A stretch of DNA of 64,000 nucleotides from Ferroplasma acidiphilum (GTDB lineage Archaea > Thermoplasmatota > Thermoplasmata > Thermoplasmatales > Thermoplasmataceae): positions 1 through 64,000 of the forward strand of contig NZ_CP015363.1 of NCBI RefSeq assembly GCF_002078355.1, given 5' to 3'. Under the pieces are notes generated by a model. It was not told the DNA's origin. It did no database searches and saw nothing but the letters and a program-made list of their open reading frames with translations. Shown in pieces: positions 19,436 through 22,631 of this stretch. Every line of letters begins with the position of its first letter. Positions within the stretch are counted from its first letter, which is position 1. Made by a program: the position numbers and the translations under genes.

Positions 19436-19837
19436 AAAATCAATTTTCTTTCTGGGTGTTATTTATATAATATATTATAAATATTATTATAAACATTGTT
19501 GAAACTAAATGATCCTGTCCATAATTTGGGGTAAATATAGGCCAACACTCTCAATGAAGTTAATAATTAAATGGAAGGGAATATTTTCCCTTTTGAAATT
19601 TATTTAAATAGTAAATAATATATCGCCCCGTAAATATTCCCTATATATACCATCTAAAAATACAATAAAAGAATATAAGCCCAGAATGAAGTTAAATAAG
19701 AATAAGTTTATTCACGAATTAATTTCTATATATTACTACTATATAGTATAACGAAGAAAGTAAATTATATAGTAAGGCAATCTTGATGTATGTATTTATA
19801 GAAATATTTAAATAAATGTTATGTATCTATATATATT
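19436..19837. promoter_or_regulatory. Long AT-rich upstream region and promoter of the peptide/protease operon
   Basis: About 400 bases with no convincing gene, markedly AT-rich. TATTTAAAT at about 19805-19813 lies ~29 nt before the ATG at 19838, so the operon probably starts with a leaderless mRNA. The stretch ACTACTATATAGTATAACG near 19735 contains a short TATA-rich palindrome. The unusual length for this compact genome is consistent with regulation or with inserted DNA. Confidence 0.45.
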
Positions 19838-20311
19838 ATGTTTGAAATAAACATAGTTGAGAGCAGTGTTCTCTACCGTAAAAGAAAGGGGTTATCTTCG
19901 AACATGGCAATTGGCTCCATGCAAAAAGATAACAGGGAGCACTACAAGAGAGTTGCAAAAGCTATTGTGATGGTATCACTCTTCTGTATGATATCGGGAG
20001 CAGGATACTTAAGTATTGCAGGAGTTCCTATTATTGAAGACGCAAGTCATATGCTTCCCGGGGCGCTAATTAATACTGGCACATCACATGGAAATTTTCT
20101 ATACTACTACTTCACACATGGCCATTTCCCGACAGCGTCTACTTGGTTTAATTGGCTAACTGTCACTATGGGACTGGAACCCAGCGTAGCCATTCTTGTC
20201 GCTGACGCATTAGGGGCTGCTGGATGGATTACAGAAGCGACCGCAGATGCAATTTTAGCAGCAAGTGGATATGTTGGAGCGGCCATTGGCGCTGCAATAG
20301 CTGCATATTGA
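19838..20311 (+). CDS. Candidate archaeocin precursor: leader/TM segment plus Ala/Gly-rich C-terminal core
   Basis: A 157-residue protein, probably starting at the leaderless ATG 19838 (M23 and M28 are alternatives). Residues ~1-40 are basic, 41-66 form a hydrophobic signal or anchor segment, and 84-106 are rich in His and aromatics. The last 46 residues are almost wholly Ala, Gly, Ile and Val with few charges: GLEPSVAILVADALGAAGW at 112-130, ending GAAIAAY. The composition, the AGW turn and the aromatic last residue resemble the helical cores of circular bacteriocins (AS-48 ends in Trp, circularin A in Tyr). The next gene, an M48 protease, starts 15 nt after its stop. Homology is not proven. 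Confidence 0.5.
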   Translation: MFEINIVESSVLYRKRKGLSSNMAIGSMQKDNREHYKRVAKAIVMVSLFCMISGAGYLSIAGVPIIEDASHMLPGALINTGTSHGNFLYYYFTHGHFPTASTWFNWLTVTMGLEPSVAILVADALGAAGWITEATADAILAASGYVGAAIGAAIAAY

Positions 20312-20326
20312 TTCCATAGGTGCGAT

Positions 20327-21331
20327 ATGGATAATTTTCAAAAACGCATAATAATCGGTACTTTGTATCCGATATCTATATTTTTATTTATACCTTCAAT
20401 TATTATTTATCACTTTACACTGTTGATATGGTTAATAACTCTTACGGGTTCAGAATTTGTAGCATTTATTCTTGTTTTTTTAGGATACCTTATTGACAGG
20501 AAAGATAAAGGTATAACAGCAACATTTGCTGAATATCTAAAATTCAATAGTTATGGTCCACTAATAGTGCTTATATTATTTTTTATGTTTGTTTCTGGAT
20601 ATTATATTATGACTCACACATATATTGATACTTTAATATACATAAATATAGTATTAATTATATTCATACTCCTGGTTCTATTACAGCCAATCTCTAATAT
20701 AAAATATAATAGAATTCCATCAATAGAAAACAATGAAGACACAAAAATACAGTCAATACTTAAGGTTTTTCGGGATTATAACATAACACCTCACATAAAA
20801 ATAATAGATACAAACAGCGTTAAAATAGCTAATGGATACCAATCAGATAAATATTATATTTATATTACAAGCTATCTGCTTTCAAACTTATCAGAGTCAG
20901 AATTAGAAGCTGTTGTTGCACACGAAATAGGGCATTTAGTTATGAAACATAATTTAAAACATTTTTTGATTAGCTGGTTGGCACTGGTATTTGGCATTAA
21001 CGCTTTCCTGCTTTCATTCATTGAAAAAAAATTTTATATACTGATTCCTATAGCAATTATTTTCCTTTATATTTTCGCCACATTAATACTTCCACTACTA
21101 CAGCGCAGCGATGAGGTAAAAGCCGATCTATTTGCCTGTAAAGCTGTAGGGGCAGATACTGTAAAATCAGCTCTCGTAAGTATAGATAACCTTAATAAAA
21201 CCCCGTTAAAGTTTAGCCCGAAGTATATGTATACCTTTTCTTTAACTCTCAGTCATCCATCTACCACTGTCAGAATAAAGAAAATTAATGAATGGAGTCA
21301 AAAGCATGGCGAAGACAAATTCCCAAGTTGA
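20327..21331 (+). CDS. M48-family membrane metallopeptidase (HtpX/Ste24-like)
   Basis: A 334-residue membrane protease. Four hydrophobic segments precede the catalytic part (residues ~12-120), and two follow the zinc motif. The zinc site is HEIGH (H199, E200, H203) with the third ligand in SDEVKADLFA (E263), and the family C terminus LSHPSTTVRIKKI is present. GGTG-like SD sequence AGGTGCGAT precedes ATG 20327. Unlike housekeeping HtpX it sits between a putative peptide precursor and a SpoIIM-like protein, so it probably matures or clears the peptide. Codon use is very AT-rich. Confidence 0.88.
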   Translation: MDNFQKRIIIGTLYPISIFLFIPSIIIYHFTLLIWLITLTGSEFVAFILVFLGYLIDRKDKGITATFAEYLKFNSYGPLIVLILFFMFVSGYYIMTHTYIDTLIYINIVLIIFILLVLLQPISNIKYNRIPSIENNEDTKIQSILKVFRDYNITPHIKIIDTNSVKIANGYQSDKYYIYITSYLLSNLSESELEAVVAHEIGHLVMKHNLKHFLISWLALVFGINAFLLSFIEKKFYILIPIAIIFLYIFATLILPLLQRSDEVKADLFACKAVGADTVKSALVSIDNLNKTPLKFSPKYMYTFSLTLSHPSTTVRIKKINEWSQKHGEDKFPS

Positions 21332-22328
21332 AGTAGCAACTTTCTACCAAAGGATATTTGCATATCTTATAGATTTAACTCTTTTAATTTGCATAACATC
21401 ATTTATTCTTTATCCTTTACATAAGCAGTTTGAGCTTTTTGATTTAGTGGAAGTTTATTCCTATGGCACTAAAGGAATTACCACATCATATGCTGATAAA
21501 TTACTGATTTCATCTATGATATTTGTTATTGTTTCGTTTGTATATTTCTTTTTTGAAATATATGGAAATCTCTCATTGGGGAATAGACTTGTCCATGGCA
21601 AAATAGTTTTATTGAAAACGGATAATAGCTATATAAGCAAAACACTAATTAGAACGGCTATCAAAGCGTTTCCTATAACAAATATAGTAGACTCCCTGAG
21701 TTTGCTAAGAAAAAGAGAAAGACCACAAAAATTTACTGAACAGGCATTACATATATTTTATATTGATAATGCTAAAAAGAAGCATCTATATGATTATATA
21801 CTTATATCGGCAATATTGTATTACCTTCCATTATTCACCATATCTATCATAACTTTAATGATTGGTAAAACGTATTTTTCAGGTGGTTCTGGCTCCATAG
21901 CACCCTATCACAACCCCACATTTAATCAATTAAATAATATATTAATTGGGAATAACACGTCGTATGATCTCCAATTAGAACTTGGCGGGCTTTTCTTATT
22001 AATACCTACGATTTTTGTATTATACACCTCCTCACTACTGGAAGGGTCTGTAATGGGTATGGCACTTCTTGGAAATAAATACACTTTTGTGGATAAAGTT
22101 CTTCCACAATTTTTTCCGGAGACCTTTGCATATGTTTTAGGAATAGCATTTGCAATGTGTGTGGTTACAATTGTAACAAGTTTTATAGAGAATTATACCA
22201 AAGGAATTAGTTATAAAGAGTTTCAAAATATTTTAAAAGCAGAGACATCAATGTTTGTATTTTACTTTGCCACTTCTATGTTTCTCATATTTATTGCTGC
22301 TAATATAGAATCTTACGTGTTAGGTTAA
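21306..22328 (+). CDS. RDD domain fused to a SpoIIM/DUF95-like membrane domain
   Basis: From ATG 21306 (preceded by GGAG, inside the end of the M48 gene) this is a 340-residue membrane protein. Residues ~8-150 are an RDD domain: FYQRIFAYLIDLTLL, then SLGNRLVHGKIV. Residues ~160-340 have four or more membrane segments in a SpoIIM-like order: FNQLNNILIGN, LEGSVMGMALLGNKY, FFPETFAYVLGIAFAMC. SpoIIM/DUF95 proteins are standard partners in circular-bacteriocin clusters (maturation, transport or immunity). The SpoIIM assignment is by pattern and less certain than RDD. Confidence 0.65.
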   Translation: MAKTNSQVEVATFYQRIFAYLIDLTLLICITSFILYPLHKQFELFDLVEVYSYGTKGITTSYADKLLISSMIFVIVSFVYFFFEIYGNLSLGNRLVHGKIVLLKTDNSYISKTLIRTAIKAFPITNIVDSLSLLRKRERPQKFTEQALHIFYIDNAKKKHLYDYILISAILYYLPLFTISIITLMIGKTYFSGGSGSIAPYHNPTFNQLNNILIGNNTSYDLQLELGGLFLLIPTIFVLYTSSLLEGSVMGMALLGNKYTFVDKVLPQFFPETFAYVLGIAFAMCVVTIVTSFIENYTKGISYKEFQNILKAETSMFVFYFATSMFLIFIAANIESYVLG

Positions 22329-22631
22329 CGCAAACGCATTAACTATATTCTCTTCAATGAATCCCATTGTGCATATATATGGTAAATCGGGGTCTTCTAA
22401 TTTTTAAGTTACTATTGGAGTTATATATTCTCTGTATACTACAATTGTTGTACATAAGAAAATGAGATAAAAATTATGGAATTCTGGCAGTGTATATGAA
22501 TTGCTGTAATTTCAAAAGTCATGCACAACTCTAACCTATATCTACGTAATAAACGATAAAAACCACAAAATATTGCATAAATTTAAAGTTTCCGTGAAAA
22601 TATTAATAATGTAAAAGCTAATCCCAAGTAT
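22329..22631. other. Intergenic region before hyuA
   Basis: About 300 AT-rich bases with no gene or RNA that I can support. The segment AAAATATTAATAATG around 22597-22612 may include the hyuA promoter. The boundary between the AT-rich peptide operon and ordinary-composition hyuAB lies here. Confidence 0.3.

Follow-up and report, generated by a model that had tools for sequence, protein, structure and literature searches.

Do three tightly spaced genes of the acidophilic archaeon Ferroplasma acidiphilum form a peptide antimicrobial system, and if so how would it relate to the known bacteriocins? To our knowledge, peptide antagonism in archaea has hardly been described outside the haloarchaea and Sulfolobales. 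The trio lies at positions 19838–22328 of the stretch of DNA that we analyzed (the window; 64,000 nucleotides, positions 1 to 64,000 of contig NZ_CP015363.1), part of a genome of 1,826,943 bases. An earlier interpretation made from the letters alone (the sequence-only reading) had proposed a protease-matured antimicrobial peptide system. We found no description of this archaeal system in the open-access literature that we searched.

Organization of the three-gene locus

All three open reading frames are on the + strand. Gene 1 (19838–20311) encodes a candidate peptide precursor of 157 aa, gene 2 (20327–21331) an M48 membrane metalloprotease of 334 aa, and gene 3 (21288–22328) an RDD-SpoIIM fusion, kept in homologues, of 346 aa, or of 340 aa from the alternative start 21306. 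The start at 21306 is better supported than that at 21288, based on a GGAG motif at 21294–21297. The reported gap of 15 nt and overlap of 26 nt between the genes were confirmed, the 26 nt holding for the start at 21306. A leaderless promoter for gene 1 and Shine-Dalgarno (SD) motifs for the other two genes had also been predicted, and sequences of both kinds were located. The TATA-box-like element ATTTAAATAA (19806–19815, + strand), found 22–32 nt 5' of the gene 1 ATG, represents a putative leaderless promoter, and an SD-like AGGTG (20318–20322, + strand) precedes gene 2, in addition to the GGAG of gene 3. The TTTAAATA box is also present 5' of the gene 1 homologue in Fer1 (Ferroplasma acidarmanus, NC_021592.1). 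The trio is arranged as a single operon, and a transcript directed by the box at 19806–19815 would probably be leaderless.

The trio lies in an interval (19436–22631, + strand) flanked by the DUF763 gene and the hydantoinase A gene, its neighbors in the window being CarS, PTH2, DUF763, and hydantoinase A/B. In G005 and G006, which represent two further species of the genus, the genes are arranged as PTH2-DUF763-hydantoinase A-hydantoinase B and just about 110–130 bp occupy the site of the trio; this empty site indicates that the trio was gained or lost as one unit. The sequence-only reading had instead suggested transfer, from the whole block being more AT-rich than its surroundings. This suggestion could not be retained as stated: genes 2 and 3 have a GC content of 30.0%, but that of gene 1 is 44.3%, above its surroundings, with a window mean of 36.7%. 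The empty site in relatives is better evidence for gain or loss than base composition.

The M48 protease and the RDD-SpoIIM protein

The assignment of gene 2 as a membrane M48 protease with an intact HEIGH site is borne out by our analysis. The product matches the M48 family (PF01435, E 2.6e-21) and contains both HExxH and a downstream Glu, the zinc-binding/catalytic motif HEIGH being found at residue 199 (20921–20935, + strand) and the motif EVKAD, whose Glu is the probable third zinc ligand, at residue 263 (21113–21127, + strand). Gene 2 shares its family and the HExxH motif with HtpX-type M48 proteases, but scores far below the HtpX equivalog cut-offs. At a homologous locus (L048:3364-4368), an M48-like protein with HExxH degenerated to QQVGL is encoded, flanked on one side by a precursor and on the other by an M48 whose motif is intact, and is a possible pseudoprotease partner.

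Gene 3 had been read as a fusion of RDD to SpoIIM/DUF95, and both domains score above the curated Pfam cut-offs. The RDD domain extends over 21333–21695 (+ strand; PF06271, E 5.4e-8) and the SpoIIM/DUF95 domain, with a conserved LPQFFPET motif, over 21933–22319 (+ strand; PF01944, E 2.2e-7). Comparison of the gene 3 profile with the SpoIIM of the AS-48 cluster by hhalign gave a probability of 93%. No gene 3 relatives were found in the viral contigs and plasmids searched, and sequence searches of the PDB with the precursor and RDD-SpoIIM profiles as queries returned no significant match. The genome's second RDD-SpoIIM gene was considered as a pseudogene, a possibility ruled out by its intact 348-aa ORF.

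M48 proteases often perform membrane quality control. The trio could on this basis be a membrane quality-control or remodelling module, in which an HtpX-like protease and a SpoIIM-like scaffold are combined with a small membrane protein that serves as their substrate or regulator, and a function in membrane remodelling has been proposed for archaeal SpoIIM homologues (PMC5898192). The genome, however, has a separate M48 gene elsewhere (G000:C1:203317), distinct from gene 2, and also has another SpoIIM gene elsewhere.

Leader and core of the candidate precursor

Gene 1 was expected to encode a hydrophobic leader-like segment and an Ala/Gly-rich tail, and both are present. Hydropathy analysis identified a single strongly hydrophobic leader segment at residues 42–60 (19961–20017, + strand), and every Lys/Arg of the protein is found at residues 14–41, before this segment. 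Based on a conserved junction motif and on the divergence between leader and core, we place the putative core peptide at approximately residues 85–157 (20090–20308, + strand). This putative core has zero Lys/Arg and a pI of 4.3. Gene 1 matched no Pfam or NCBIfam family, and the bacteriocin models of Pfam/NCBIfam matched none of 16 precursors.

The homologous precursors have in common a Lys/Arg-rich start, one hydrophobic segment, a GVP motif in most, and a junction motif approximating G-[DN]-[IFL]-x-x-[YF]-[EY]-x-x-H-W-G-x-x-P, beyond which the sequences diverge. Lys and Arg account for 23 of 2328 residues in the cores compared to 163 of 2108 in the leaders. The cores are 70–95 residues in length, strongly hydrophobic, and have a pI of about 4; at the pH outside the cells of an acidophile, most of their few Asp/Glu would be expected to carry a proton. 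The C-terminus conforms to [IVL]-x-[AGST]-[YFWAME] in all precursors (28/28), with the last residue aromatic in 15 and Ala in 11, and this conserved C-terminus sits on an otherwise variable core. Paralogues at locus L074 include two precursors whose leaders are 98% identical and whose cores are 25% identical, each with its own M48. Sequence comparison reveals a conserved leader, a hypervariable core, and a candidate cognate processing enzyme, the features that characterize RiPP-type systems, and at this level the precursors behave like RiPP precursors.

We also examined predicted structures. AlphaFold2 modeled the window core (residues 81–157) as five short helices of 8–14 residues, with a mean pLDDT of 79.5 and a pTM of 0.69; a Foldseek comparison of this model with the PDB gave no significant fold match. 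The helices are too short to span a membrane, which makes it unlikely that gene 1 encodes an ordinary multi-pass membrane protein. A model of the whole precursor (pLDDT 48.6) was too poor for use.

Distribution and selection

Fer1, which is assigned together with the window genome to one species, contains the same trio with 85–91% protein identity. Comparison with Fer1 yielded dN/dS values of approximately 0.10–0.17 for all three genes (about 0.1 for gene 1), indicating that the genes are maintained as proteins, a pattern of substitution that points to purifying selection within the species. Synonymous divergence was 0.37–0.47 for the trio compared to 0.12–0.34 for six neighbors tested.

Within the family, the precursor is found in 20 of 77 genomes and in 10 of 19 genera; among 400 genomes of the class, none outside the family contained it. 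Homologous loci were gathered with gene 3 and its profile, near-duplicates such as Fer1/UBA567 and YP3/E-plasma being counted separately. Co-occurrence of the trio in other Thermoplasmata, which the sequence-only reading had proposed as a check, was observed: of the 20 full-length RDD-SpoIIM loci, 17 have a gene 1 homologue together with an adjoining M48. The three findings that it had named as refuting (gene 1 modeled as an ordinary membrane protein, absence of the trio from relatives, and no SpoIIM similarity in gene 3) did not occur. The remaining three loci consist of one that begins at a contig edge inside the M48 gene (L042) and two without M48 (L043 and L056). At the latter two, a signal-peptidase-like membrane protein with the motifs GSSMNP/GTSMLP and HRV...KGDN is found beside RDD-SpoIIM, the Pfam S24/S26 scores being below the cut-off. 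The same two genomes contain precursor-like sequences, spotted by eye, with the same junction motif as the precursors (YYFTDGHN and YYYATNGHN); one has a frame-shifted leader and the other lies at a distance of about 5 kb, beyond genes for transposases.

Several additional features of these loci were observed. The L042 locus (L042:19-1829) is from another family of the order and holds an M48 and RDD-SpoIIM pair, any precursor being off the contig, which indicates that the protease-SpoIIM pairing reaches beyond the family of the window. L043:168-2699 and L056:1441-3959 each hold a small hydrophobic protein of 71–74 aa with a basic tail that, judged from its sequence, could be an immunity protein. 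In two genera (L040 and L041) the precursor gene is divergent from M48 and RDD-SpoIIM, so that the three are not in one operon. A second trio of the window's genome, likewise intact, lies at about G000:C1:1355.6-1358.1 kb, and close to it are an additional M48 gene and a third precursor that has decayed and contains stops (G000:C1:1352454-1353463). At this second locus the window's strain has a complete set, while the second RDD-SpoIIM gene of Fer1 (L068 and L147) is truncated, lies beside transposase genes, and has no adjoining precursor or M48.

Pairing of protease and core

At L074 there are four precursors, each followed by its own M48, together with one full-length RDD-SpoIIM gene and a 65-aa remnant. 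RDD-SpoIIM remnants are likewise found 3' of other cassettes (L045, L138, and L144). This arrangement of genes suggests that the trio was duplicated and the redundant RDD-SpoIIM then lost, with each precursor-M48 pair being kept. M48 distance correlates with core distance across 28 precursor-M48 pairs, and for the 24 pairs with intact leaders core and M48 are correlated once leader distance is taken into account (partial Mantel r=0.41, p=0.00025). Leader distance also tracks M48 (partial r 0.49), indicating that part of the covariation is due to co-inheritance. The core-M48 covariation is the pattern that would be expected of a protease reading its own core, with shared descent explaining part of it.

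These data also bear upon the quality-control or remodelling module considered above. Tandem cassettes with swapped cores and the exchange of protease type would be unexpected of a housekeeping module, and the module is patchy, being absent from most relatives. We consider this explanation very improbable.

Proposed function of the system

The proposal of a protease-matured antimicrobial peptide system held in part. Co-occurrence of the genes, the leader and core organization, the covariation, and the empty site strongly support a peptide system that is SpoIIM-linked and matured by a protease, but no match to a known circular bacteriocin family was found. In our judgment the trio probably encodes a bacteriocin-type system for a ribosomally made peptide. 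It is best read as a bacteriocin-like system that is associated with SpoIIM, specific to this archaeal lineage, and equipped with a cognate protease. For such a system we infer the steps of cleavage, export, immunity, and killing. An N-terminal leader of about 84 residues, with its Lys/Arg-rich start and hydrophobic segment, would anchor the gene 1 precursor in the membrane. The adjacent M48 would recognize its own core, remove the leader, and possibly join the ends, and RDD-SpoIIM may help to export the product and/or protect the producer. The released product would be a compact, acidic, Lys/Arg-free peptide of five helices and about 70–75 residues, which most likely would permeabilize the membranes of competing strains. 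Head-to-tail cyclization of the product is possible, although we are inclined to doubt it. In a more ambitious version, M48 is both leader protease and cyclase specific for its own core, and yields head-to-tail cyclized antimicrobial peptides in Thermoplasmatales. These would be the first circular bacteriocins from archaea and also the first for which a maturation enzyme is identified, a version that must be considered speculative and rather unlikely.

The same machinery could alternatively release a peptide signal (pheromone) or a component of the surface/biofilm, in which case the diversity of the cores would reflect strain-specific recognition. The leader, core, and protease features would all be equally expected of such a system, no dedicated immunity gene was identified in the window, and purifying selection within the species is compatible with such a role. 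Hydrophobic, Lys/Arg-poor, multi-helical cores of 70–95 residues are, however, large for pheromones, no receptor or regulator gene adjoins the trio, and SpoIIM is a hallmark of bacteriocin clusters. We regard a signalling or surface role as unlikely, and prefer the bacteriocin-like system.

Comparison with known systems

SpoIIM has been termed class-defining for circular bacteriocin clusters (PMC13289728), and a SpoIIM/DUF95 protein is required for export of leucocyclicin Q in bacteria according to work cited in PMC7132975. SpoIIM/DUF95 is encoded near the precursor both in the archaeal system (17/20 loci) and for the circular bacteriocins, as exemplified by enterocin AS-48 (pPD1, NZ_KT290268.1) and the acidic group ii members gassericin A/acidocin B. 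Both also have a hydrophobic, cysteine-free core of similar size, helical (by prediction in the archaeal system) and with a hydrophobic C-terminal residue, and several precursor copies occur in some circular bacteriocin clusters as they do in the archaeal system (PMC8659200). The archaeal system differs in its host, in the fusion of SpoIIM to RDD and the long membrane-anchored leader, neither of which is present in the AS-48 cluster examined, in having no ABC transporter nearby, and in the dedicated protease beside nearly every precursor.

These similarities raise the possibility that the product of the trio, acquired from bacteria, is a true member of the known class of circular bacteriocins, with cyclization and the ABC ATPase encoded elsewhere in the genome. 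SpoIIM is homologous by profile to that of the AS-48 cluster, the five helices predicted for the core compare with the four or five of the saposin fold reported for circular bacteriocins (PMC6131525), and the C-terminus is hydrophobic/aromatic, with three homologues ending in VIAW, identical to AS-48. The core profile, however, showed no detectable homology to the AS-48 precursor (0.5% probability), and lacking a match to AS-48 or bacteriocin families the product, although it would work in a similar way, is not classifiable as a known circular bacteriocin. A motif scan detected no ABC ATPase signature near any locus examined, while the same scan found one in the AS-48 control; export must therefore differ, and is perhaps of the Sec type by way of the leader. 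Confinement to one archaeal family also argues against a circular bacteriocin of the known class, which we consider improbable.

Halocins and sulfolobicins are archaeocins, peptide or protein antimicrobials of archaea, as is proposed here for the product of the trio, a comparison made by description rather than by sequence. We know of no SpoIIM-RDD and M48 arrangement for either group. A published screen that used antiSMASH/BACTIBASE listed no bacteriocin loci for E-plasma (PMC10354927), a genome with two loci of the present kind (L062 and L066).

A close parallel to the protease is found among those circular bacteriocin clusters of bacteria that encode an M48 or M50 peptidase, where, as here, M48 occurs in a SpoIIM-containing peptide cluster (PMC8659200). 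No leader-cleaving or cyclizing enzyme is known for circular bacteriocins, and the M48 peptidase of the few bacterial clusters has been noted as a possible maturase (PMC8659200). In bacteria M48 is present in few clusters and lies three genes from the precursor, whereas the archaeal M48 is adjacent, nearly universal, and covaries with the core. Nearly all precursors have the archaeal M48 as a neighbor, its variation follows the core as well as the leader, and at two loci a protease of unrelated type takes its place; this M48 thus represents a directly testable candidate for a circular-bacteriocin maturation enzyme.
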